Below are positions 29,584 to 63,140 of a DNA stretch of 64,000 bases, piece by piece. Source of the stretch: Deltaproteobacteria bacterium. Its GTDB lineage: Bacteria; Desulfobacterota; Binatia; UBA9968. The notes beneath the pieces were generated by a model. That model saw only the letters and a list, made by a program, of their open reading frames with translations. It was not told where the DNA came from and made no database searches. The translations under genes were made by a program, and so were the position numbers. Every line of letters starts with the position of its first letter. Position 1 is the first letter of the stretch. The stretch is taken from NCBI GenBank assembly GCA_016874755.1, contig VGTH01000015.1, positions 1 to 64,000 of the forward strand, in the 5' to 3' direction.

Positions 29584-29609
29584 GTGCCTGTTGCCTCACG
29601 CCTGTTGCC
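29584..29609. repeat. Direct repeat of GGCAACAGGC (minus strand)
   Basis: Two copies, one after the other, overlap the 3' end of the molybdenum hydroxylase gene. The upstream copy encodes its last residues (RQQA) and the TGA follows at 29596-29598. Confidence 0.55.
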
Positions 29610-31839
29610 TTCTTAATTCCCGATACACCTTCTCCGCCGTTACCGGCACATCGAACAAGCGCACGCCCACCGCATCGGCAACGGCATTGCAAATCGCCGC
29701 CGGTGGCGTGACGTTGGCGTGTTCGCCGATGCCTTTGGCTTCGTAGGGGCCCGGGCCATTTTTGCCTTTGACCAGGACGGTTTTGAACTTTGGGATATCG
29801 ACGATGTTAGGGATCTTGTACTCGCCCAAATTGGTTTGGGTTACTTTGCCTTGATCGTGGGTGATCTCTTCCATTAGTCCCGAACCGATCGCCATGATGG
29901 CTTCGCCGTCGATCTGGCCCTGGTGGCCGAGCGGGTTGATGATCGTGCCGACGTCGTGGTCGGTGACGAATTTGTTGAGCTTGACGCGGCCAGTGTCGCG
30001 GTCGACTTCGACCTCGGCGACCTGGGCGATGAACGAAGTCGACGAGCCTTTGCGCGGCACTTCGGTCTCGACGCTGACGGTCACCGGAGTGCCGATGGCT
30101 TTGACAATGTCCTTTAGCGAGAGCGGTTTGGTTTTGGCGCCTTTGGCGCTGAACTTGCCTTTGGCGTAGCTCACTTTGTCCTCGGCGCAAGCTAAGTTTT
30201 TAGCGGCGATGGCGTTGAGTTTGGCCTTTAGTTCGCCGCAGGCCTGATAGGCCGCCGCGCTGTTGATGTTGGTCGAGCGGCTGCCGCCAAAACCGACATC
30301 GACGCTGTAGTTGACGTCCGCCGTGTTGCCGATCTTGCAGCGCACGTGATCGTAGGGCACTTGCATCTCATTGGCGACGGTCTGGCAGAGCACCGTTTGT
30401 AATCCCGTCCCCTGATCGCCGGCGACGGTGAAAACGGTGAACGTGCCGTCCGCTTCGGCAGTTAAGTTTACCCATACTTTGCCGGCGCCCGTGCCGCGCT
30501 CGTACATCGCGACGCCGCGGCCGACGTTTGATTTTTTTGGCGATTTCCAACCCGCCGCATCGAGGGCGGCTTTGAGCGTCTCTTTCGCTTTGACGCCGAT
30601 CCATTTTTTGCCCAGCGCGTTCTCGTCATCTTCCTCAACCAGGTTGATCATGCGAAACCTGGCCGGGTCCATTTTTAATTCTTTGGCGATCAAGTCCATG
30701 TGCGACTCGGCGGCGAAGACCGCTTGAATCGCACCCGGCGCGCGCCAAAAACCGCAGGGGACGGTATTCGTATAAACCTGCAGCGCTTCCATGTAGGTGT
30801 TGTCCATTTTGTAGGGCATCGCCGAGCCCGCACCGCCGATGCTGGCGCGGCCGGGCTTCATGCCGGCGTAGGCGCCGGTGCCATGGATCGCTTGCAGGTA
30901 GCGCGCGGTGATGCGGCCGTTTTTCTTCACGCCGGTTTTGACTTTGATGACCGTGTCGTGGTCGGGGTTCATCGCGGTCAATTCTTCGGAATGCGACAGG
31001 ACGATCTTCACCGGCCGGCTAGCGCGCTTGGCGAGGAAGTAACAAATGGGCAACTCACCGGCGCCGCTCTTGCCGCCGAAGTCGGCGCCGACGTGAACGG
31101 CTTGCAGATGAATATCACTCGGTTTGATGCCCACCGCTTTAGCAAACTGGGCGCGGGTGCCAAACGGTCCCTTGGTCGAAGCCCACGCGTGCACAGTGCC
31201 GTCACCGTCGATCTTGACCAAAAACGACTGCGGCTCGAGATAACCTTGATGGTGCATCGGCATGCGAAACGTGTGTTCGAGGACGAGATCCGCATCGGCG
31301 AATCCTTTTTCGATATCGCCCTTACCCCAGGTGAGCTTGTTGACGATGTTGCCGCCGGCCGGCGCCATGATGTCGGCCGGCGCGCCGTCATAGGCGGGCG
31401 CGTTGTCGTGCAGCACCGGCGCGCCAGGCTTGATCGCATCGACGACGTCGAAGACGGCGGGCAACTCTTCATATTCCACTTCAATCAAACTGACGGCTTC
31501 CTCGGCGGCGTCTTTGTCCTGCGCCGCCACCGCGGCGACCCGGTCGCCGACGAAACGGACTTTGTCCCAACAGAGGACCGGTATGTCGCGAATGCTTTTG
31601 CCTTGGTAATGCTCAGGCTCGTCCTTGCCGGTGACAACGGCTTTGACGCCGGGCACTTTCAGAGCTTTGGAAACATCGATGCTCTTGATGCGCGCGTGCG
31701 GGTAGGGGCTGCGCAAAATCCTGCCCCAGAGCGCGTCGCGAAAATGGACGTCGGCGCCGTAGATGGCGCGGCCGCTGACTTTGTCCGCGCCTTCAACCCG
31801 GCCGACGGCGGCGCCGATGATTGAGGATTCTCTTGCCAT
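29596..31839 (-). CDS. Xanthine-dehydrogenase-family molybdopterin-binding subunit
   Basis: 747 residues, matching the large subunit of CO/xanthine-dehydrogenase-type hydroxylases. The a/b hammerhead domain starts at GRVEGADKVSGRAIYGAD. Cofactor-binding blocks are HVGADFGGKSG, GFWRAPGAIQ and GDQGTGLQT. The catalytic Glu lies in EAKGIGEHANVTPPA near the C-terminus. The [2Fe-2S] and FAD subunits that normally accompany it are absent on both sides, so it must pair with proteins encoded elsewhere or work alone. It would need MCD cofactor. The last residues are encoded by a small direct repeat. Confidence 0.93.
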   Translation of the reverse strand: MARESSIIGAAVGRVEGADKVSGRAIYGADVHFRDALWGRILRSPYPHARIKSIDVSKALKVPGVKAVVTGKDEPEHYQGKSIRDIPVLCWDKVRFVGDRVAAVAAQDKDAAEEAVSLIEVEYEELPAVFDVVDAIKPGAPVLHDNAPAYDGAPADIMAPAGGNIVNKLTWGKGDIEKGFADADLVLEHTFRMPMHHQGYLEPQSFLVKIDGDGTVHAWASTKGPFGTRAQFAKAVGIKPSDIHLQAVHVGADFGGKSGAGELPICYFLAKRASRPVKIVLSHSEELTAMNPDHDTVIKVKTGVKKNGRITARYLQAIHGTGAYAGMKPGRASIGGAGSAMPYKMDNTYMEALQVYTNTVPCGFWRAPGAIQAVFAAESHMDLIAKELKMDPARFRMINLVEEDDENALGKKWIGVKAKETLKAALDAAGWKSPKKSNVGRGVAMYERGTGAGKVWVNLTAEADGTFTVFTVAGDQGTGLQTVLCQTVANEMQVPYDHVRCKIGNTADVNYSVDVGFGGSRSTNINSAAAYQACGELKAKLNAIAAKNLACAEDKVSYAKGKFSAKGAKTKPLSLKDIVKAIGTPVTVSVETEVPRKGSSTSFIAQVAEVEVDRDTGRVKLNKFVTDHDVGTIINPLGHQGQIDGEAIMAIGSGLMEEITHDQGKVTQTNLGEYKIPNIVDIPKFKTVLVKGKNGPGPYEAKGIGEHANVTPPAAICNAVADAVGVRLFDVPVTAEKVYRELRRQQA

Positions 31840-36373: not shown

Positions 36374-36451
36374 GCACCACGAAGGCGCGAAGCACACGAG
36401 GTTCGGAGAAGACTTTTTGATTCTTTTCTCTTTACCTTCATGATCTCGCGG
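36374..36451. repeat. Dispersed CACCACGAAG repeat, copy 2 (decayed right arm)
   Basis: The left arm CACCACGAAGGCGCGAAGCA continues to CACGAGGTTCGG, as in copy 1. The right arm keeps only ACCTTCATGATCTCGCGGTC and has lost the CTTCGTGGTG end. It occupies most of the 240-base gap before the next binding-protein gene. Confidence 0.65.
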
Positions 36452-52474: not shown

Positions 52475-53995
52475 ATGAAATCACGATTAGTGCAATCGTT
52501 ATTCGTATGGGCAAGCGTTTTGATATCGTTAGGATCGGCGCGCCAGCTCAGTGCGGAAACGCGCATCTCGGTGGGCGTCACCGAGACGATGGAGACGTTC
52601 AACCCCTACGGTGAGAGCGTCTCATTGATGTATAGCGTGTGGTGTCAGGTGCTGGGCTGCCTCGGCACCTACGATTTCGCCCAGGGTAAGAATGTAGGTC
52701 TCTTGGTCGAACGTTGGGAGACCAAAGACCCGAAGACCTGGTATTTCTACCTGCGGAAAGACGCGCGTTTTCACGACGGCTCGCCGGTGACGGCCGAAGA
52801 CGTGGTGCACTCGCTGCGGCGCACGCGCGACGATCCCTATACCAAACAGAGGCAATTGATTGCGCCGGTGGCGAGCGAAAGTGTCGTGGATAGCCATACG
52901 GTTAAGGTCGTCACTAAAGAACCCACCGCGCCGTTGCTCGATTACCTCTTTGATCGCATCATCATCACCAGCAAAGCTGTCTACGACAAATACGGCCCGG
53001 AGGTGACCGACCGGCAATATCCCATCGGCGCCGGGCCATACAAGTTTCGCGAGCTGATTCCCGGCCAACGCCTGGTGATCGGCAAAGACCCGCGCCACCC
53101 GATGTGGAAGCAGCACAAACAAGCGCCGGACGAAATCGTTTTTCGCATCATGCGCGAGCCGGAACAGCGGGTCACTGCGTTGCTGAACAACGAAATCCAG
53201 GTCGCCATGTTTGTGCCGCCGCATATGCGCGAGCGGGTGGATCGCAGCGCCAACCACAAGATCGCCAAATTCAACAGCGCAGAAGTGATGTTTCTGGCGA
53301 TGATGCCTAAGTTCAAGCCGTGGGATAACAAGCTTTTGCGCCAGGCTGTGACCTATGCCATCGACCGCGACACGATCGTCAAAACCATTTTGCGCGGAGA
53401 GGCCGATCGCATCGAGGGGCCGCTGGCGAGCGGCATGTTCGCGTTTGACCCTAATCTGCAGCCGCGCCAGACCTACAATCCGGAAAAAGCCAAAGAGCTC
53501 GTCAAGCAGGCCGGCTATCCCAACGGCCTCGATGTCGAGCTGTTCACACCGGTCAACCGCTACACTTTCGATAAACAATTGACCGAAGCGATGGTGCCGA
53601 TGCTCACCGCCGTCGGCATCCGCACCAAACTGATGACGCCCGAATGGGCGACGCTGTGGGCCAACGTGCAAACCGGCAAAGTGCCGTTCTACTACATGGG
53701 GCGCGGCAGCGTCGTCGATCCGAGCGCGTATCTGGCGCAATATTTCGAGACCGGCGGCTCGCCGCGCATCGGTTTTTCCCATCCGAAAGTGGACGAGTTG
53801 TTGGCGCAGGAGCGGCAGACGTTTGACGTCGAAAAGCGCAAAAGAGTCCTGCGCCAGGCGATGAGCGTGATCAACGAGGAGGCGCCGGCGGCGTTTTTAT
53901 GGCGCCACCAGCTCTATTTCGGCATGAGCAAAAACATCGATTACAATCCGTTGCCCAGCGAGCGGCTTTACGGTTGGAACATCAAAGTCAAATAA
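52475..53995 (+). CDS. Family-5 (OppA/DppA-like) solute-binding protein, tandem copy 1
   Basis: 506 residues. The signal peptide covers about 1-27 (RQLSAE). The family-5 domain starts at VGVTETMETFNPYG, and the blocks LVERWETKD, VTAEDVVHSL, AIDRDTIVKT and YPNGLDVEL follow. The family binds peptides, nickel or other small molecules for ABC import. Two conserved Cys (VWCQVLGCLGTYD, near 50-57) occur in all three copies. No oligopeptide permease or ATPase genes are adjacent. The ATG is preceded by GGAGG. Confidence 0.92.
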   Translation: MKSRLVQSLFVWASVLISLGSARQLSAETRISVGVTETMETFNPYGESVSLMYSVWCQVLGCLGTYDFAQGKNVGLLVERWETKDPKTWYFYLRKDARFHDGSPVTAEDVVHSLRRTRDDPYTKQRQLIAPVASESVVDSHTVKVVTKEPTAPLLDYLFDRIIITSKAVYDKYGPEVTDRQYPIGAGPYKFRELIPGQRLVIGKDPRHPMWKQHKQAPDEIVFRIMREPEQRVTALLNNEIQVAMFVPPHMRERVDRSANHKIAKFNSAEVMFLAMMPKFKPWDNKLLRQAVTYAIDRDTIVKTILRGEADRIEGPLASGMFAFDPNLQPRQTYNPEKAKELVKQAGYPNGLDVELFTPVNRYTFDKQLTEAMVPMLTAVGIRTKLMTPEWATLWANVQTGKVPFYYMGRGSVVDPSAYLAQYFETGGSPRIGFSHPKVDELLAQERQTFDVEKRKRVLRQAMSVINEEAPAAFLWRHQLYFGMSKNIDYNPLPSERLYGWNIKVK

Positions 53996-54005
53996 GAATC
54001 GAAAA

Positions 54006-54029
54006 CCCTCGCCCGCTTGCGGGCGAGGG
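54006..54029. repeat. Perfect 11-bp hairpin CCCTCGCCCGC-TT-GCGGGCGAGGG
   Basis: It starts 10 bases after the first family-5 gene and is followed by a G-run, not a T-run. It may be an intergenic repeat that also stabilises the transcript's 3' end. Confidence 0.75.
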
Positions 54030-54134
54030 CGGGGGGGTCCATCTTACCGCGTTGATGTCGGAAGACGAGGTCCTTCGCCCATCGGCTCAGGCTGACAAAG
54101 CTGTCGATTTCCCTATGGTAGCATAGGAGCAGGT

Positions 54135-55661
54135 ATGAAGCAGCATAGTTTTGGATTGTTTGCCTTTGCGCTTGCGCTTACGGTTACGGCAGGGCTGTGC
54201 TCGACAGCGAGCCGCGCCGCTGAAACTCGCGTCTCGGTCGGCGTTACCGAGACCATGGAAACGTTTAATCCCTACGGCGACAGCGTGGCGTTGATGTACG
54301 GCGTCTGGTGTCAGGTGTTGGGCTGTCTCGGAACCTATGATTTTGACAAGGGTCAGTATGTTGGAACAATCGCGGAGCGCTGGGAAGTCAAGGATCCCAA
54401 CAACTGGATCTTCCACGTGCGCAAAGGAGTGAAATTTCACAACGGCACGCGCGTGACGGCGCATGATATCGTTCACTCCATAGGGCGTGCACGCAAGGAT
54501 CCGCTGAGCAAGCAGACGATTATTGTTGCCGCCGTGGCGAGCGAAAAAGCCTTGGACGATTACACCGTTCAATTGACGACGAAAATTCCCACGGCGCCGC
54601 TGCTCGACTATCTCTTCGACCTGCTGATCATCACCAGCAAGGATCTGTACGACAAGTATGGTCCGGAGGTGGCCGACCGGCAGTATCCCATAGGTGCAGG
54701 ACCCTACAAGTTCCGCGAATTGATTCCCGGCCAACGTTTGGTGATCGGCAAAGACAAAACGCACCCGATGTGGAAGCAGTATCCGCAGGCGCCCGATGAA
54801 ATTGTTTTTCGCATCATGCGCGAGCCGGAGCAGCGGGTGACGGCGCTACTCAGCAACGAAATCCAAATCGCCCAATTCGTGCCGCCCCATATGCGCGAGC
54901 GGGTGGAGAATAGCCCCAACCATAGGATCGTAAAACTTCTCGCTAACGAGCTCATGTTTTTGGCCATGATGAATAAAGTTAAGCCGTGGGATAATAAGCT
55001 GGTGCGCCAAGCGGTGGCCTACGCGATCGATCGCGACACGATTATCAAAACTTTGCTGCGTGGCGAGGCGTCGAGGCTCGATGGTCCTTTGGGCGAGGGG
55101 CAGTATGGCTACGATCCCAATTTGCAGCCGAAATACACTTACAATCCGGAGAAAGCTAAAGAACTTCTAAAGCAGGCCGGTTATCCGAATGGTGTCGACG
55201 TGGAGCTGCAAACCCCGGTGGGGCGGTACACTCTCGACAAACAACTGACTGAAGCGATGATTCCGATGCTCAACGCGGCGGGCTTTCGCGCCAAGCTGCT
55301 GACACCGGACTGGGCGACGCTATGGGCTAACGTCCAAGTCGGCAAGGTACCGTTCTACTACATGGGCCGCGGTAGCGTGCTCGATCCTAGCCTCGCGCTG
55401 GCGCAGTATTTCGAAACCGGCGCATCGCCGCGCATCGGTTATTCCAATCCCAAAGTAGACGAACTACTGCAGCAGGAGCGACAAACTTTCGATCCGGCGA
55501 AACGCAAAAAGATTCTGGCACAAGCGATGAGCTTGATCACGGAAGATGCCCCGGCGCATTTTCTTTGGCGCCATCAGTTGTTTTTTGGCATGGCCAAGAA
55601 CGTCGAGTACCGGCCGCTGCCCAATGAGCGGATTTATGGCTGGAACATAAAAGTAAAGTAG
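54135..55661 (+). CDS. Family-5 (OppA/DppA-like) solute-binding protein, tandem copy 2
   Basis: 508 residues, very similar to copies 1 and 3 along the whole length. Signal peptide about 1-28 (ASRAAE). Shared blocks include GPYKFRELIPGQRLVIGKD, EPEQRVTALL and LTPDWATLWANVQVGKVPFYYMGRGS. The Cys pair near residue 50 is kept. It lies 140 bases after copy 1 and only 13 bases before copy 3, so copies 2 and 3 are surely co-transcribed. The difference at the tip YDPNLQPKYTYNPE versus copy 1 may reflect ligand choice. Confidence 0.92.
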   Translation: MKQHSFGLFAFALALTVTAGLCSTASRAAETRVSVGVTETMETFNPYGDSVALMYGVWCQVLGCLGTYDFDKGQYVGTIAERWEVKDPNNWIFHVRKGVKFHNGTRVTAHDIVHSIGRARKDPLSKQTIIVAAVASEKALDDYTVQLTTKIPTAPLLDYLFDLLIITSKDLYDKYGPEVADRQYPIGAGPYKFRELIPGQRLVIGKDKTHPMWKQYPQAPDEIVFRIMREPEQRVTALLSNEIQIAQFVPPHMRERVENSPNHRIVKLLANELMFLAMMNKVKPWDNKLVRQAVAYAIDRDTIIKTLLRGEASRLDGPLGEGQYGYDPNLQPKYTYNPEKAKELLKQAGYPNGVDVELQTPVGRYTLDKQLTEAMIPMLNAAGFRAKLLTPDWATLWANVQVGKVPFYYMGRGSVLDPSLALAQYFETGASPRIGYSNPKVDELLQQERQTFDPAKRKKILAQAMSLITEDAPAHFLWRHQLFFGMAKNVEYRPLPNERIYGWNIKVK

Positions 55662-55674
55662 AAACGGAGACAAT

Positions 55675-57201
55675 ATGAAAATCGGTGGGTCGCTACGTCT
55701 GATTGTTTTGGCTTTTTCCCTGTCAGTCGCTCCCGGGTTGCCGCCGCGCGCCGCCCAGGCCGCAGAGACTCGCATCTCCATCGGCGTGACGGAGACGATG
55801 GACACCTTCAATCCCTACGCCGATAGCGTGTCACTCATGTACAGCGTGTGGTGCCAGGTGTTGGGCTGCCTCGGGACTTATGATTTCGACAAAGCGCAGC
55901 ATGTCGGGCTGGTGTTGGAAAAATGGGAAGTGAAAGATCCCAATAACTGGCTGTTTCATGTGCGCAAGGGGCTCAAGTTTCACAACGGCACACCGGTGAC
56001 GGCGCATGATGTCGTGCATTCGATGGGGCGGACGCGCAAGGACCCGCAGAGTAAGCAAACGCAGAATATCTCGGCGGTGGCGAGCGAAAAGGCGCTCAAC
56101 GATTACACGGTCCAAGTTACCACCAAGATTCCGACCGCGCCGCTGCTGGATTATCTCTTCGACCGCATCATCATTACCAGCAAAGATCTCTACGATAAGC
56201 TGGGACCCGAGCAGGCTGACAAGCAGCCCTTCGGCGCGGGCCCGTACAAGTTTCGCGAACTGATCCCCGGCCAGCGTTTGGTCATCGGCAAAGATCGATC
56301 CCATCCCATGTGGAAACAGTATCCCCAGGCACCCGATGAGATTGTGTTCCGCTTGATGCGGGAGCCGGAGCAGCGGGTGACTGCGCTGTTGAATAACGAG
56401 ATTCAGATCGCGCAGTTTGTGCCGCCGCATTTGCGTGAGCGCGTTGAGCGCAGTGCCAATCATAGGATTGTCAATTTTCACACCGCGGAAATTATGTTCC
56501 TGGCGATGCAGCCGAAAGTAAAACCCTGGGATAACAAACTGGTGCGCCAGGCAGTAGCCCATGCGATCGACCGCGATACCATCATCAAGACGCTGTTGCG
56601 CGGCGAAGCGGCGCGGCTCGATGGACCGCTGGGCGAGGGACAGTATGGCTACGATCCCAACCTGCAACCTAGGTACACCTACAATCCCGAGAAGGCACGC
56701 GAGCTGTTAAAGCAGGCCGGTTATCCCAATGGCGTCGACGTCGAGCTGCAAACGCCGGTGGGGCGCTATACGCTGGATAAGCAAATCACTGAAGCGATGG
56801 TTCCCATGCTTAACGCGGCCGGCTTCCGCGCCAAGCTGCTGACACCGGATTGGGCGACGCTGTGGGCCAACGTGCAGGTCGGCAAAGTGCCTTTCTACTA
56901 TATGGGCCGCGGCGGTGTCGTCGACCCAAGCGCTGCGCTGGCGCAATACTTTGAGACGGGTGCGTCGCCGCGCATCGGCTTTTCCAATCCCAAGGTCGAT
57001 GAGCTGCTAAAACAGGAGCGGCAAACCTTCGAGCCCGCCAAGCGCAAGAAGCTCTTGGCCGAAGCGATGAGCGTGATCACCGAAGAAGCGCCGGCGCACT
57101 TTCTCTGGCGCCATCAGCTGCTCTTCGGCATGGCGAAAAACGTCGAGTATCGGCCGCTGCCGAGCGAGCGGATTTTTGGCTGGAATATGAAGGTGAGATA
57201 A
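55675..57201 (+). CDS. Family-5 (OppA/DppA-like) solute-binding protein, tandem copy 3
   Basis: 508 residues, closest to copy 2 (shared EGQYGYDPNLQP and GVDVELQTPVGRYTLDKQ). Signal peptide about 1-28 (AAQAAE). It keeps the Cys pair and all the conserved blocks of copies 1 and 2, and has a few differences such as KQPFGAGPYK where the others read RQYPIGAGPYK. It is preceded by GGAGA. Downstream is an A/T-rich inverted repeat shared with the end of the convergent flavoprotein gene. Confidence 0.92.
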   Translation: MKIGGSLRLIVLAFSLSVAPGLPPRAAQAAETRISIGVTETMDTFNPYADSVSLMYSVWCQVLGCLGTYDFDKAQHVGLVLEKWEVKDPNNWLFHVRKGLKFHNGTPVTAHDVVHSMGRTRKDPQSKQTQNISAVASEKALNDYTVQVTTKIPTAPLLDYLFDRIIITSKDLYDKLGPEQADKQPFGAGPYKFRELIPGQRLVIGKDRSHPMWKQYPQAPDEIVFRLMREPEQRVTALLNNEIQIAQFVPPHLRERVERSANHRIVNFHTAEIMFLAMQPKVKPWDNKLVRQAVAHAIDRDTIIKTLLRGEAARLDGPLGEGQYGYDPNLQPRYTYNPEKARELLKQAGYPNGVDVELQTPVGRYTLDKQITEAMVPMLNAAGFRAKLLTPDWATLWANVQVGKVPFYYMGRGGVVDPSAALAQYFETGASPRIGFSNPKVDELLKQERQTFEPAKRKKLLAEAMSVITEEAPAHFLWRHQLLFGMAKNVEYRPLPSERIFGWNMKVR

Positions 57202-57202
57202 T

Positions 57203-57279
57203 AATGGGCAATGGATAATGGATAATTTTCGGAGAGGGGGTTGGGCGTTATCAATTGTCCATTATGCATTATCAATTGT
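57203..57279. repeat. Inverted repeat AATGGATAATGGATAATT / AATTGATAATGCATAATGG
   Basis: The left arm is at 57203-57227 and the right arm at 57247-57279, with TTTTCGG after the left arm. The right arm encodes the last five residues (TIDNA) and the TAA stop of the minus-strand flavoprotein. Confidence 0.7.
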
Positions 57280-58947
57280 GGGTATTACGTCGCCCTCTGC
57301 AAACGGGATAGGTTCAGTTCGGCAGGTGATGTTTTCGCCGGCTTTTTGGAGTTTGATCCACTTCGGTAAGGCTTTATCGAGAGCAGGGAAGTCGTCGCGG
57401 TAGTGTTGGCCGCGCGATTCCCTGCGCGCGAGGGCGCTGCGGGTGACCATTGCACCAACCCAGGCGAGGTTGGCGCATTCTAAGGCTTTGATCCAACTGC
57501 GTTGGTCGGTGCCTTTTAGTTCTGAGATTTTTTCTTTACGGATCGCGTCAAATCCCGCGACGCCGGTGTTCAATCCTGTTTCGTTGCGCACAACGCCCGC
57601 AGTGGACCAGGCGAGGTCTTTGATCTCGCGCTCGATCTCGTAGGGATTCAGTCCGCCTTCGCCGCGAAACGATTCCACTCGCTTGATTTCATCGTGTAGG
57701 GCGCCTTCGTCGAACGATGCTAGGGCATTCGCGTTGGCGAAATGCGCGGCGTATTTTCCGGCGCGGGCGCCGAGCACCATGCAGCTCGCGATCGCATTGC
57801 CGGACAAGCGGTTCGAGCCGTGGATGCCGGTGGCCGATTCGCCAGCGGCGAATAGACCGGGGATGGTCGTCTCGCACTTCTCGTTGACGAACAAACCTCC
57901 CAAAAAGGTGTGCAGCGCCGGCACCCAGGCAAAGCGGTCGCGCCGGCAATCGATGCCGGCGGCGGAAAGCTTCGGCGCGTATTCGAACTGAATCTCGTCG
58001 TCCCACTTTTCGTCAGGGATAAACGATGGGTCGATGCAGATGGGCCCCTTGCCGGCGAGCATTTCCTTGTAGGTGGCCTGGACCAAGATCGCCCGCGTCG
58101 TGCCTTCCAATCTTTGCGGATCGTATTTTTCCAAGAATCTTTCCCCGGCGGCGTTCAAAAAACGGCCGCCTTTGCTGGTGAAGGGCGAGAGGCCGGCCAT
58201 CGGCACGGTGATGCCGTTCGGCGCGGGAATCAGGGTAAACTCGAGAAACTCCATGTTGGCCAACTCCGCGCCGATATTGAACGCGGCGACATAGGCGTCA
58301 CCGGTGGTGTGAAAGTTGGCGCTGGTAAATTTCTGCAAACCCACGGCGCTGCCGGCGGCGAGAATGATCGCCTTGGCTTTGTAGAGGCGAAACTCACCCG
58401 TCTGGACGTTGAGACCAAGGGCACCCGTGACGCGATCGTTGGCCGTGAAGAGCTTAGTGATCATCGTCCACTGCTGGACCTGGACTTCGCGGTTCAAGAC
58501 TTCCTTGCGCAGCGTGCCCATCATGCCGACGCTGCCGCCGATGGGCGGCACGCTGCGCGCGAAGGAGCTGCCGAGCCGTTTCTCCTGATAGAAGTGCTTG
58601 CCGTCGACGGCTTTCTTAAAGTGGAGGCCAATTTCTTCCAGCTCGATGATGCGCTCGGTGATTTCGTCGACCACGGCGCGGACGATCTTCTGGTGCGGGA
58701 TGTAGTCGCCGCCAATGACGGTATCTCTGAAATGAACGTCTTTGTTGTCGCGCGGGTCGGCATGACCGAAGGCCGCCTGAGGCACGCCGCCGGAGGTCGG
58801 GCTGGAGCCGCTGCGGCCAAGGCGGCCTTTGTCAACGAGGATGACGTCCATACCGCGCTTGGACGCCTCCAGCGCCGCCATGCAGGCGGCAAGCCCGCCG
58901 CCGACGATCAGGACGTCGCATTCATGGGTTTGTTTGACGACGGTCAT
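57262..58947 (-). CDS. FAD-dependent oxidoreductase of the succinate dehydrogenase/fumarate reductase flavoprotein family
   Basis: 561 residues. The FAD-binding motif DVLIVGGGLAACMAALEA is at residues 10-27. The body has the LGGLFVNEKCETTIPGLFAAGE and GIHGSNRLSGNA blocks, and the C-terminal RRESRGQHYRDDFP with the Arg typical of SdhA, NadB and AprA. The covalent-FAD His of SdhA is not evident. It follows a ferredoxin gene, so it may pass electrons between the ferredoxin and a dicarboxylate, enoate or amino-acid-type substrate. It is the last gene of a minus-strand operon with a molybdenum dehydrogenase. Its tail is repeat-derived. Confidence 0.88.
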   Translation of the reverse strand: MTVVKQTHECDVLIVGGGLAACMAALEASKRGMDVILVDKGRLGRSGSSPTSGGVPQAAFGHADPRDNKDVHFRDTVIGGDYIPHQKIVRAVVDEITERIIELEEIGLHFKKAVDGKHFYQEKRLGSSFARSVPPIGGSVGMMGTLRKEVLNREVQVQQWTMITKLFTANDRVTGALGLNVQTGEFRLYKAKAIILAAGSAVGLQKFTSANFHTTGDAYVAAFNIGAELANMEFLEFTLIPAPNGITVPMAGLSPFTSKGGRFLNAAGERFLEKYDPQRLEGTTRAILVQATYKEMLAGKGPICIDPSFIPDEKWDDEIQFEYAPKLSAAGIDCRRDRFAWVPALHTFLGGLFVNEKCETTIPGLFAAGESATGIHGSNRLSGNAIASCMVLGARAGKYAAHFANANALASFDEGALHDEIKRVESFRGEGGLNPYEIEREIKDLAWSTAGVVRNETGLNTGVAGFDAIRKEKISELKGTDQRSWIKALECANLAWVGAMVTRSALARRESRGQHYRDDFPALDKALPKWIKLQKAGENITCRTEPIPFAEGDVIPTIDNA

Positions 58948-58983
58948 GGTTCTACTTATAGCGTTGTGACTCGGAATTATCTC

Positions 58984-59012
58984 GCGTAGAGGCGCAGGGG
59001 ACGCAAAGTTCG
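58984..59012. repeat. GCGTAGAGGCGCAGG / GACGCAAAGTTCGG unit
   Basis: A single unit of the CGCAAAG family upstream of the flavoprotein start, ending in the TTCGG tag and followed by the inverted repeat at 59027. Confidence 0.55.
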
Positions 59013-59026
59013 GATTGGGAAATATT

Positions 59027-59120
59027 CACCACCAAGACACGAAGGGCACGAAGTTCGGAAGAGGAAAGTTTTTCGAAACTATCTTCCTCTTGCCTTCGTA
59101 TCCTTTGTGCCTTCGTGGTG
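59027..59120. repeat. Dispersed CACCACGAAG inverted repeat, copy 4
   Basis: The left arm CACCACCAAGACACGAAGGG continues to CACGAAGTTCGG. The right arm CCTTCGTATCCTTTGTGCC ends TTCGTGGTG. The right arm overlaps the 3' end of the ferredoxin gene and supplies its last 13 codons and stop. Confidence 0.85.
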
Positions 59121-59321
59121 AAAATCCGATTTCCTCGGCGCCAAAACAACTTCAATGGCGTCCTCCGGGCAGACCAGCTCGCACAGGAAACAGTTGACGC
59201 AATACTTGTTGCCATAGGGAAAGACTTTGTCTTTCTTTTCGTTGAAGCGAAAGACGTCGGCGCCGCAGTCGTAAACGCAGATGCCGCAGCCGTCGCACTT
59301 GTTGGGATCGACTTTAATCAT
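59079..59321 (-). CDS. Ferredoxin with two [4Fe-4S] clusters and a repeat-derived tail
   Basis: 80 residues. Two C-x2-C-x2-C-x3-C motifs are visible: CDGCGICVYDC (about 9-19) and CVNCFLCELVC (about 41-51), enough for two cubane clusters. The start overlaps the stop of the molybdenum dehydrogenase gene (ATGA). The natural fold ends near VLAPRK; the last residues (HHEGTKDTKARGR) are a translation of the dispersed repeat at 59027-59120. It probably carries electrons between the dehydrogenase and the flavoprotein (inference). Confidence 0.93.
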   Translation of the reverse strand: MIKVDPNKCDGCGICVYDCGADVFRFNEKKDKVFPYGNKYCVNCFLCELVCPEDAIEVVLAPRKSDFHHEGTKDTKARGR

Positions 59322-62080
59322 TTGTCTTTCGCGGCGAGGGCGCGCCAGACCTTTTCCGGCGTCAGCGGCAGCTCGGTCAGCCGCACGCCGACGGCGTTGA
59401 ACAGGGCGTTGCCGATGGCCGACGGCACGGTGAGGAGGCCGCTTTCGCCCATGCCCTTGGCGCCGTAGGGACCGGGGCCGTTGCCGTTTTCGAAGAGAAT
59501 CGTGACCAGCTCTTCAGGCAAATCTTTTACGTTGGGCACACGATAGTTGATCAAGCCTGGATTGACCATGACGCCGTTCTCGTACTCGGTCTTCTCAAAA
59601 AACGCCTGGCCAATGCCCTGCACCAGCGCGCCGACTTCCTGGGTGTGGCACTGCTGCGGGTTGATCGCTTTGCCGGCGTCGGCGATGGTGACGAATTTTA
59701 CAATCTTGATTTGGCCGGTGTCGCGGTCGACTTTGATTTTCGCCGCGCCCCAACTCACCTCCCAGAAGGGCGCCTTGGCGCCCATGAGAATATTCGGGTC
59801 TTTGGTGCTTTCGTAGCGGCCGTGGCCGGCGACGACGCCGTTGGCGCCCTTTAGGTGGCGGACCACGTCTGCCGTGCTCAGCGCAGTTTCGCCGAAGCGG
59901 ACAAAACCATCGCGCAACGAATAGTCGGCATCGGAACGAGCGGTCATTTGCGTGGCGCCTTCGATCAACTGCGCTTTCACCGACTGGGCCGCGCGCTGCA
60001 CGGCCAGGCCCATAACCGTAGTGCCGCTGCTCGCATAGGTTCCGAAGTCCAGCGGTGTGTGCGCCGTGTCGAGCGGCGCAAGCGCAACTTCGTTCGCGGT
60101 GAGCCCCAATTCTTGAGCGGCTATTTTTCGCAGCGCTGTGTTAGCACCCTGACCGATCTCCACCGTGCCCTCGAACAGCGTCACTTTGCCGTCGGTATTC
60201 ACTTCGACGCGCGCCTCGGAGACTTTGTAGTTGCCGCCGCCGTCCTTGAGCGCGCAGCTGACGCCGATGCCGCAGTCTGGTTCGAGTTTCTCACCCCAGC
60301 CGATCTCTTTGGCGACGCGCCGCAGTCCTTCCTTCATGTCGCAGTCCACCGGCGTGTCGCCGGGGCAGAAGTCGTGGCCTACGGTCATGAGATTCTTCAT
60401 GCTAAATTCCACCGCGTCCCAACCCATCTCGTGGGCGATCATGTCCATCTGCGATTCGTAGGCCCAGACCACTTGCGGTGTGCCCATGCCGCGGAAAGCG
60501 CCGGCGGGAACGGTGTTGGTATAAACTGCGTAGCCGTCGGATTTGATATTAGGAATGACGTAGGGCCCGTGCACACGGAAGGCGGCTTTCTGGCAGACGC
60601 GCGGGCCCGCGTCGGAGTAGGCACCGCTGTCGACATGGGCCACCGATTCTCGCGCGATGATTAAACCGTCCTTGCTGACGCCGGTCTTGATGCGCACGCG
60701 CATGGCTGGCTTACTGACGGTGCGAAACGTATCTTCGGCAGTCAGTGCTAAAAACACCGGCCGCTGCGCTTTGCGCGCCAACATCGTGATCAATGGTTCG
60801 AACTTGGTGTGATTCTTGTTGCCGTAGGCGCCGCCGACCCAGGGCACGATGACGCGCACTTTGTCGCGCGGCATGTCGAGCATTTCGGCGATTTCTTGCT
60901 GGGCGAGAAACGGGTGCTGGGTCGAGCTCCAGACGGTGACGAAGTCGCCGTTCCATTCGGCTAGAGCTAGATGCGGTTCTAGGGAGTAGTGCGCGACTTT
61001 GGAAAAATAAAAACTGTGCTCGAAAACGCGGACCGACTCCGCAAAGCCTTTGGCAACGTCGCCCTTTTGCCAACCGAAGTGAAAGCTTGTGTTGCGATGC
61101 CGCTTGGCTTCTTCGTCGACACTCGGATAGCCGGGAAATTTCTCGCCGTGTTCGCTGGTGTAGTCGTGAATCTGGGGCGCATCGGCAGCGACGGATTCGT
61201 CCAGGCTCAAGAGCGCGGGCAGCTCATCGTAGTCCACTTGAATCAGTTTGAGCGCGGCTTCAGCGATCTCGACGCTCTCCGCCGCCACCGCTGCCACGGG
61301 ATCGCCCTCGTAGCGAACTTTCTGCATCGCGAGAATGGCCTGGTCCTTCACCAGCGGGCCAAAGTAGGGATTGATATCTTTTAGATCGTCGCGCGTCAGC
61401 ACGGCGACCACACCGGGTAGCTGCTCAGCGGCTTTTGCGTCGATGCGTCTGATGACCGCGTGGGGCAGGGGGCTGCGGAGAATCTTGGCGTAGAGCATGC
61501 CTGGTCGCTGCAAATCGGCGGTGTAGATCGGCGCGCCGCGAACTTTCTCGGCGCCGTCGAGACGGAGCCGCTCCCGATCCAATGGCTGAGTTGCTTTTGT
61601 GCGCAACAAATCCGCGGCGCGCTTGACCGCGGCGATGATTGAGACGTAGCCGGTGCAGCGACAGATGTTGCTGGCGAGGTGGTGTTTGATTTCCTCGTCG
61701 GTGGGATTAGGAGTTTTCGCCAGGAGCGCATAGGTCGACAAAATCATCCCCGGCGTGCAGTAGCCGCACTCGAAGCCGCCCTCCTGCCAGAAGGCTTGCT
61801 GGATCGGATGAAGCTTGTCGCCATCGGCGAGACCCTCGATGGTTAAAAGCGACTTGCCGTCGATTTCAAAGGCCGGCGTCGTGCACGCGCTCACGGGATT
61901 GCCATCGACAAGTACAGTGCAAGCGCCGCAGACCTGCACGTCGCAACTGACCCGGGTGCCTTTGAGATTTAGTTCGTCGCGGAGAAAATCGGCGAGTAGT
62001 CGCTGCGGCTGGACGGTGGTGTCGCGCCACTGGCCATTGAGCTGAAAGCGAATCGATTTCTGCTCTAAAGAGGTGCTCAC
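59318..62080 (-). CDS. Xanthine-dehydrogenase-type enzyme, fused [2Fe-2S] and molybdopterin subunits
   Basis: 920 residues from GTG 62080. The N-terminal part has the two [2Fe-2S] sites (CDVQVCGAC about 45-53; CGYCTPGM and NICRCTGY about 100-145). From about residue 165 the molybdopterin subunit follows: hammerhead start DGAEKVRGAPIYTAD, GGAYGNKNHTKFEP, GAFRGMGTPQ, EIGQGANT and the catalytic Glu in GAKGMGESG near 890. The separate FAD subunit of classical enzymes is missing; the ferredoxin and flavoprotein just downstream may replace it. The substrate could be an N-heterocycle, an aldehyde or an aromatic acid. Confidence 0.94.
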   Translation of the reverse strand: MSTSLEQKSIRFQLNGQWRDTTVQPQRLLADFLRDELNLKGTRVSCDVQVCGACTVLVDGNPVSACTTPAFEIDGKSLLTIEGLADGDKLHPIQQAFWQEGGFECGYCTPGMILSTYALLAKTPNPTDEEIKHHLASNICRCTGYVSIIAAVKRAADLLRTKATQPLDRERLRLDGAEKVRGAPIYTADLQRPGMLYAKILRSPLPHAVIRRIDAKAAEQLPGVVAVLTRDDLKDINPYFGPLVKDQAILAMQKVRYEGDPVAAVAAESVEIAEAALKLIQVDYDELPALLSLDESVAADAPQIHDYTSEHGEKFPGYPSVDEEAKRHRNTSFHFGWQKGDVAKGFAESVRVFEHSFYFSKVAHYSLEPHLALAEWNGDFVTVWSSTQHPFLAQQEIAEMLDMPRDKVRVIVPWVGGAYGNKNHTKFEPLITMLARKAQRPVFLALTAEDTFRTVSKPAMRVRIKTGVSKDGLIIARESVAHVDSGAYSDAGPRVCQKAAFRVHGPYVIPNIKSDGYAVYTNTVPAGAFRGMGTPQVVWAYESQMDMIAHEMGWDAVEFSMKNLMTVGHDFCPGDTPVDCDMKEGLRRVAKEIGWGEKLEPDCGIGVSCALKDGGGNYKVSEARVEVNTDGKVTLFEGTVEIGQGANTALRKIAAQELGLTANEVALAPLDTAHTPLDFGTYASSGTTVMGLAVQRAAQSVKAQLIEGATQMTARSDADYSLRDGFVRFGETALSTADVVRHLKGANGVVAGHGRYESTKDPNILMGAKAPFWEVSWGAAKIKVDRDTGQIKIVKFVTIADAGKAINPQQCHTQEVGALVQGIGQAFFEKTEYENGVMVNPGLINYRVPNVKDLPEELVTILFENGNGPGPYGAKGMGESGLLTVPSAIGNALFNAVGVRLTELPLTPEKVWRALAAKDK

Positions 62081-62111
62081 GTCTCGGTCTACCTTTCATG
62101 CACAAGCAGCA

Positions 62112-63140
62112 TCATGGCAAGATAATGTTCCTTAGTCGCTCAAACGTCGCCGGCGAGATATTCTTGACGCCGGCGACGATCTTACCGATTTCGTCGCCGG
62201 TAATCGGATCGATGTCCAAGCGGCCCTTTTTCGCTTCAGCGAGAAACTCCGGATCTTTCATGGTTTCCTGAAAGGCGTTCTGCAGCAGGCGCACGCGATC
62301 CTTTGGCGTGCCCGGCGGCAGCGAATAGAGGCGGTTGATGGTACCACCGACGTTATGCACGACGAGGTTGAACAGATCGCGACCTTCGTTGGATTTTATT
62401 AGGTCGACGGCCCGTGGAATCTTCAGATGCTCGGGGTGCGCCTTGGCCACGGCCTGCAAAACCACCATGCCTTCTCCGGCATCCAAGACGTTGCGCCAGG
62501 AGGCTTTGGTTCCCTCCCAACTCGAACAAAAACCGGCGACTTCACCGGCCTCGGCGGCCAGACGCACATCTGCCACGCCCTTGTAGCCTTCGATGAGCTG
62601 CAGCGGAAGGTTCGTGAACTTCATCAACAGTCGAGGAATATCGGCGGTGGTGGAACCGGCCGCTTCCGCGCCGATCTTCACCAGCGCTTTCGATTGCTGC
62701 CACTTGTCCAAGCTAGTGATGCCGCTTTTTTTGGTGAACGCGCAAATATTATTGATGCGCACGGGCGAGCCAACCCATTCGAACTTTTGCGCATCGAAGG
62801 AAACCCCCTTGGCGTTTAGATACTGTTGAATGATCAATCCGCCGATCCAATTGCCGACGGTCAGGCCGTCCGGCTTGGCCTGATTGTAGATGTGATTGGC
62901 CGTGATGAGGCTACCGGCGCCGGGCATGTTCTCAACGGTCACGGTCGGCTTACCCGGCAGATGTTTTCCCATGTGCCGCGCGATCGCGCGCGAGTGGGCA
63001 TCAAAGCCCCCGCCCGGGGAAAACCCGACGATGATGCGAATGGTCTTGCCTTCGAAGAATCTTTCTTGCGCTTCAGCAACAGGCGGAAATAGGGCAAGGG
63101 TACCGAATAAGAGCCCGATCGCAATTGATGTGACTTGCAT
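62112..63140 (-). CDS. TctC-type solute-binding protein
   Basis: 342 residues with a signal peptide (about 1-24, PPVAEAQ). The family blocks are GKTIRIIVGFSPGGGFD, HMGKHLPGKPTV, NMPGAGS and PPGTPKDRVR. It is 31 bases upstream of the molybdenum dehydrogenase gene on the same strand. This suggests that the bound compound is the substrate, or a precursor of the substrate, of that enzyme. No TctA/TctB gene is visible. It is a paralogue of 37690-38718. Confidence 0.92.
   Translation of the reverse strand: MQVTSIAIGLLFGTLALFPPVAEAQERFFEGKTIRIIVGFSPGGGFDAHSRAIARHMGKHLPGKPTVTVENMPGAGSLITANHIYNQAKPDGLTVGNWIGGLIIQQYLNAKGVSFDAQKFEWVGSPVRINNICAFTKKSGITSLDKWQQSKALVKIGAEAAGSTTADIPRLLMKFTNLPLQLIEGYKGVADVRLAAEAGEVAGFCSSWEGTKASWRNVLDAGEGMVVLQAVAKAHPEHLKIPRAVDLIKSNEGRDLFNLVVHNVGGTINRLYSLPPGTPKDRVRLLQNAFQETMKDPEFLAEAKKGRLDIDPITGDEIGKIVAGVKNISPATFERLRNIILP

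Follow-up and report, generated by a model that had tools for sequence, protein, structure and literature searches.

A co-inherited molybdenum dehydrogenase, ferredoxin and FrdA-like flavoprotein gene set in uncultured Binatia

The window, a stretch of 64,000 nucleotides from an uncultured Candidatus Binatia soil bacterium (GenBank assembly GCA_016874755.1, contig VGTH01000015.1; genome 5.56 Mb, 99.55% complete), carries on its minus strand genes for a fused molybdenum (Mo) dehydrogenase, a 2[4Fe-4S] ferredoxin and an SdhA-like flavoprotein, preceded by a gene for a solute-binding protein. All three redox genes show one and the same distribution, over 12 of 97 genomes, which exceeds chance and supports their interpretation as a co-inherited module. 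The module is a new combination of known parts and is both real and co-inherited; a literature search that covered titles and the beginnings of abstracts, with subscription papers mostly outside its coverage, returned no description of a gene set of Mo enzyme, ferredoxin and FrdA-like protein. Our preferred reading, held tentatively and with slightly less than even confidence, is that of a two-enzyme catabolic module in which a flavin-free Mo hydroxylase is partnered by a 2-enoate reductase that receives its electrons from ferredoxin. The cluster consists of the following genes:

62112-63140, minus strand: TctC/Bug-type periplasmic solute-binding protein, 342 amino acids (aa), first gene of the cluster; PF03401 at 29.4 bits against a Pfam gathering cut-off of 27, a marginal match
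59318-62080, minus strand: fused 2x[2Fe-2S] and molybdopterin dehydrogenase, 920 aa, GTG start; Fer2, Fer2_2, Ald_Xan_dh_C, MoCoBD_1 and MoCoBD_2, no flavin adenine dinucleotide (FAD) domain
59079-59321, minus strand: 2[4Fe-4S] ferredoxin, 80 aa with a core of ~65 aa; Fer4 families of Pfam
57262-58947, minus strand: SdhA/FrdA-fold flavoprotein, 561 aa; PF00890 (FAD_binding_2) and PF02910 (Succ_DH_flav_C); predicted noncovalent FAD, predicted 2-enoate reductase

The Mo and ferredoxin genes share 4 nt (ATGA), and the spacer between the ferredoxin and flavoprotein genes measures 131 bp. An earlier reading of the DNA letters (hereafter the sequence-only reading) had described these four genes in this order on the minus strand and had seen no CoxM-type FAD subunit at the cluster; the open reading frames and Pfam bear out both statements, and PF00941 was not found near the cluster.

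Distribution and linkage of the three redox genes

The phyletic search covered 97 genomes including that of the window (G000), and nine Mo-protein candidates were scored per genome, which should be enough to catch any orthologue. Fused Mo orthologues (62-77% identity) were present in 12 genomes: G000, G008, G012, G023, G026-G030 and G032-G034. The identical 12 genomes carried orthologues of the flavoprotein (68-84%; next best match 36%) and of the ferredoxin, for which there was one extra match, at 47%, in G018. Some copies were incomplete: the Mo orthologue was frameshifted in G023 and cut by the contig end in G026, and the flavoprotein was in two pieces in G023 and a contig-end fragment in G034. 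Eight of the 12 genomes belong to one genus of a family designated f3, in whose GC-rich loci genes were located by tblastn, since greedy choice of open reading frames took antisense frames. A ninth member of that genus (G031, 76% complete) was searched and none of the three genes was found. The other four positives are spread over four genera of family f1, that of the window, while the remaining 21 of 25 f1 genomes have none of the genes. The coincidence of all three in 4 of these 25 genomes corresponds to a naive 1/C(25,4) = 8e-5, a figure that ignores relatedness.

The ferredoxin gene was located directly upstream of the flavoprotein gene in all 12 genomes. From the Mo stop to the ferredoxin start the distance was -4 nt in G000, 17 nt in G008 and 12 nt in G023, and it amounted to 2.1 kb in G034, 4.3 kb in G028, 4.5 kb in G032, 5.8 kb in G026, 9.7 kb in G029 and 13.8 kb in G030. 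For G033 the figure is 5.6 kb provided that the contig is circular, and in G027 the Mo gene and the ferredoxin-flavoprotein pair lie on two short contigs. Because the pair is adjacent throughout and the distance to the Mo gene varies, the pair is the tight unit, and the Mo gene is coupled to it chiefly through co-inheritance. The sequence-only reading had suggested looking for the four-gene set elsewhere; the three redox genes do recur together in the 12 genomes, but the Mo gene adjoins the pair in just three. G008 and G023 have TctC orthologues (73-75%) immediately 5' of their Mo genes.

The Mo protein, the ferredoxin and the flavoprotein

Both [2Fe-2S] domains and the Mo domains of the dehydrogenase are on one chain without FAD_binding_5 (Pfam), the layout of a FAD-free fused enzyme of the xanthine oxidase (XO) family. 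The eight cluster cysteines and the glutamate of the GxGE motif (E879) were invariant in all 10 aligned orthologues, the broken copies of G023 and G026 having been omitted. The full-length PDB match was 1sij, the Desulfovibrio gigas aldehyde oxidoreductase (AOR), and the Mo half matched best to 1rm6, the alpha subunit of 4-hydroxybenzoyl-CoA reductase (HCR). As the score for the NCBIfam equivalog NF045668 was 490.1 bits against a cut-off of 1100, we describe the protein as working like DgAOR/MOP and not as being that enzyme. Among protein families the Mo half scored highest against HcrA (TIGR03194), at 523.1 bits below the cut-off of 994.55, and searches of the 12 Mo-gene stretches gave no HcrB-like FAD subunit with an extra [4Fe-4S] cluster. 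D. gigas AOR (MOP, 1sij/1vlb) shares with the window protein a single chain that unites two [2Fe-2S] domains with the Mo domain and has no FAD domain. Unlike that enzyme, the Mo protein studied here is accompanied by a ferredoxin gene and a FrdA-fold reductase; the external carrier of the FAD-free D. gigas enzyme is flavodoxin, according to the part of the source that was available (PMC10223205). In the ferredoxin all eight cysteines were invariant in the 10 aligned of the 12 orthologues.

A paralogous group of Mo proteins was also seen (G011:C227, G028:C1:1242293, G033:C1:2194727 and others), in which matches to the fused protein cross a single in-frame stop. This suggests 2Fe-2S and Mo genes adjoining in one frame, a possible fusion or fission intermediate.

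A structural model of the flavoprotein built from 29 sequences reached a predicted local distance difference test (pLDDT) score of 91.2; an earlier model from 10 sequences (pLDDT 47.8) was discarded. The model aligned to Escherichia coli FrdA (5vpn_A) over 541 residues with Z 52.3 and a root-mean-square deviation of 2.4, to adenosine 5'-phosphosulfate (APS) reductase with Z 39.3, and to urocanate reductase UrdA (6t86) with Z 37.6 over the shorter domain of UrdA (VIA-align rows were a second look at Foldseek matches only). The modelled FrdA fold, together with PF00890 and PF02910, places the flavoprotein in the SdhA/FrdA superfamily.

The active site was read from a profile alignment with SdhA, for which we take the residue numbers and roles as given. 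In this alignment R285 corresponds to the proton-donor arginine, and H346 and R380 to the carboxylate contacts. All three were the same in each of the 10 orthologues aligned out of 12 (G023 and G034 omitted) and conserved to at least 90% in a wider set of 29 sequences; they form the Arg/His/Arg triad of a UrdA-like, FrdA-fold 2-enoate reductase. The histidine for the second carboxylate is replaced by T238, the Thr-Glu pair is gone, and the position of the covalent-FAD histidine is occupied by G/S. In UrdA the same contacts hold the urocanate carboxylate and the fumarate-site histidine and glutamate are not conserved, as stated in the available part of PMC7921117. Because the triad is kept and the second-carboxylate site is lost, as in UrdA, the substrate is predicted to have one carboxylate adjoining a C=C bond, and the flavoprotein resembles a catalytic reductase of the enoate type more than an electron relay.

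The better-known relatives differ in several respects. Succinate dehydrogenase and fumarate reductase proper have the covalent-FAD histidine and dicarboxylate residues that are absent here, and the partner is a 2[4Fe-4S] ferredoxin and not of the SdhB type; the scores for TIGR01812 (281 against a cut-off of 567) and TfrA (363.9 against 718) are also too low. In AprAB, too, a 2[4Fe-4S] ferredoxin-like protein partners an SdhA-like FAD subunit, but both genes here score below the APS reductase cut-offs (AprA 117.8 against 557 bits, AprB 36.4 against 135.65 bits). Enzymes of the urocanate reductase or Fcc3 type share the FrdA-like catalytic domain with the kept carboxylate triad and the altered second-carboxylate site; the flavoprotein differs from them in being closest to SdhA/FrdA in fold and sequence and in having a 2[4Fe-4S] ferredoxin instead of FMN or haem domains as its partner. 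Plasmid-borne relatives were considered and set aside (186 records, all below 60% identity, those listed at 28-31%); of three that were opened, two were accompanied by SdhB-type subunits and the third was unannotated.

Electron flow and alternative readings

The sequence-only reading had put the flavoprotein in place of the CoxM-type FAD subunit, on the premise that classical enzymes carry such a subunit. The premise overlooks the FAD-free D. gigas AOR, and the replacement is not supported, as the flavoprotein is unrelated to CoxM. CoxM-free Mo genes are the majority in G000: within 6 kb, 16 of its 34 MoCoBD_1 genes (35 matches, one split) have a CoxM gene and 18 have none, and its 16 PF00941 genes all lie away from the cluster. 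Queries with the CoxM proteins of this genome gave no match in the 12 fetched Mo-gene stretches, seven of which also hold the ferredoxin-flavoprotein pair; the same query matched CoxM in two control loci (L112 and L120), where flavoprotein relatives of 33-34% identity stand beside CoxS/CoxL/CoxM genes. At a threshold of 1e-90 the flavoprotein was matched in 8 of 395 genomes of the phylum, the window's own among the eight.

The literal version, in which the flavoprotein functionally replaces CoxM and serves as the outlet of Mo-enzyme electrons to quinone, NAD or oxygen, is thus highly improbable: the missing CoxM near the Mo gene and the co-inheritance of the three genes speak for it, but a relay would have no need of the invariant catalytic triad, Pfam detects no CoxM-type domain in the flavoprotein, and the genome has one copy of the module against 18 CoxM-free Mo genes. 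The flavoprotein is best seen as an enzyme in its own right. What stands of the earlier interpretation as a whole is the co-inherited set with a reductase-like flavoprotein; its role as a stand-in for CoxM does not.

Under the reading that we prefer, an imported organic substrate would be oxidised with water in the cytoplasm by the flavin-free Mo hydroxylase, whose [2Fe-2S] clusters would hand the electrons to the module's own 2[4Fe-4S] ferredoxin. This small protein would dock on the FrdA-fold flavoprotein, which would in turn reduce the C=C bond next to a carboxylate, either of an intermediate of the same pathway or of another acid. Direct electron transfer, the direction of the electrons, the 2-enoate substrate and the placement of both enzymes in one pathway are what we infer. 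Electrons at the ferredoxin level run downhill into an enoate and not the reverse, so that flow from the Mo enzyme via ferredoxin and flavoprotein to the C=C bond is the likely one. In the window the ferredoxin gene overlaps the Mo gene, and in roughly half of the relatives it overlaps that of the flavoprotein. In G018 a GltD-like NAD(P)H oxidoreductase comes after a remote flavoprotein-ferredoxin pair (25% and 49%), an arrangement consistent with a ferredoxin-fed reductase and with such pairs being fed by differing donors. The stronger version, a self-contained couple from Mo hydroxylase through its own ferredoxin to the 2-enoate reductase, by which the cell would balance the hydroxylation of (hetero)aromatic or unsaturated acids against reduction within its cytoplasm and need neither oxygen nor quinone nor NAD(P), is possible but somewhat unlikely.

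Several observations weigh against the paired enzymes. In G012 the Mo gene and the ferredoxin-flavoprotein pair are on separate contigs, each among other genes, and in the six f3 genomes readable on one contig they are 2-14 kb apart. The independent events are few, because eight of the 12 genomes belong to one genus, and co-occurrence may mean a common pathway without direct electron transfer. Furthermore, G130, which belongs to a different family within the phylum, carries ferredoxin (41%) and flavoprotein (44%) genes in tandem, and no Mo orthologue was among the 26 Mo-protein matches listed for it (best 810 bits, not full length); the pair can therefore work with another donor. It is conceivable, though unlikely, that both enzymes serve one pathway with no direct coupling, the ferredoxin serving the flavoprotein only and the Mo enzyme having another acceptor. 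This would agree with the tight pair and the often distant Mo gene, with G130, and with the flavoprotein relatives adjoining Mo enzymes that have their own CoxM. It agrees less well with the situation in G000, G008 and G023, where the Mo and ferredoxin genes overlap or are almost contiguous, or with the external acceptor that a flavin-free Mo enzyme requires, as no other acceptor was co-inherited among the genes examined.

The main rival explanation, which we regard as quite unlikely, is that both enzymes are reductive and that ferredoxin reduced elsewhere feeds the flavin reductase and the Mo enzyme, the latter acting in dehydroxylation as do HCR, XdhD of uric acid degradation and urolithin Ucdh. 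It gains from the Mo half scoring highest against HcrA and 1rm6, and ferredoxin is given as the electron source of HCR in the available part of PMC12771579. HcrABC is thus ferredoxin-linked as well, but the HcrB-like FAD/[4Fe-4S] subunit was not found here and the Mo and 2Fe-2S parts are fused. The nearest conceptual precedent of the module, which also speaks for this rival, is reductive uric acid degradation, where an XO-family Mo enzyme (XdhD) acts in sequence with a flavin-dependent dearomatising reductase (YgfK/UacX), and where ferredoxin is the proposed donor for clostridial XdhD without a FAD subunit; its flavin enzyme is of the PydA/YgfK type and not of FrdA fold, and both steps are reductive (PMC12507026, in the text available). 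Against a reductive Mo enzyme, the HcrA membership score was not reached, the XO family is mostly oxidative, and no dedicated ferredoxin reductase adjoined the module in the stretches read. The reductase of anaerobic nicotinate breakdown, 6-hydroxynicotinate reductase (Hnr), has a ferredoxin link too. In the nicotinate fermentation of Eubacterium barkeri, where Mo nicotinate dehydrogenase is combined with Hnr, Mo hydroxylation is likewise followed by partial saturation of a ring acid, as far as the available part of PMC9304392 describes it.

If the paired reading is true, the module would provide a concrete electron partner for part of the large complement of Mo dehydrogenases without CoxM in uncultured Binatia. 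It would also mean that a Mo hydroxylase can supply FrdA-fold reductases with electrons by way of ferredoxin, and that ring acids can be attacked in a redox-neutral manner.

The ferredoxin-flavoprotein junction and neighbouring genes

A repeat occupies the junction of the pair in the window:

59025-59122, minus strand: dispersed palindromic element spanning the 3' end of the ferredoxin gene and the junction with the flavoprotein gene

Its core, CACCACGAAGGCAC, has copies in the window at 36375, 40143 and 59101, where zero are expected by chance, and its hairpin has z = -6.1. The element fills the 131-bp spacer; in 6 of 11 relatives (G008, G023, G026, G027, G029 and G032) the ferredoxin and flavoprotein genes overlap by 4 nt instead. 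The C-terminal ~13 residues of the window ferredoxin are not conserved, and the relatives have short junctions and different tails. As the palindromic element lies across the ferredoxin end, these last ~13 residues are repeat-derived.

The genome of the window contains 43 UbiD genes (PF01977; prenylated flavin mononucleotide decarboxylases) besides its 34 MoCoBD_1 genes for Mo dehydrogenases, so that both groups are greatly expanded, and G012 has 121 UbiD matches. UbiD was considered as a conserved partner, since it lies near the module in several genomes; with 19-121 UbiD genes across the 12 genomes such proximity is weak evidence, and UbiD was not retained. In G018 (locus L113, contig C99) an SdhA-like FAD protein, a ferredoxin and a GltD-like oxidoreductase are followed further down by a UbiD-like protein, identified as UbiD by eye. 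In G130 (locus L118, contig C64) two FrdA-like proteins in tandem come after the ferredoxin, with a UbiD in the vicinity and putative nitrile hydratase subunits, the latter assigned by eye.

Beyond the window (locus L039, 10465-14254), a hydantoinase A-like gene (PF01968) and a probable HyuB adjoin a luciferase-like monooxygenase (LLM) family oxidoreductase, divergent from the cluster; they are possible ring-opening genes. They were not counted as pathway partners, as the flank in G023 differs. Within the window, a second MoCoBD_1 protein without CoxM (747 aa) is encoded on the minus strand at 29596-31839, and three tandem family-5 solute-binding proteins with mutual identities of 73-84% are encoded on the plus strand at 52475-57201.

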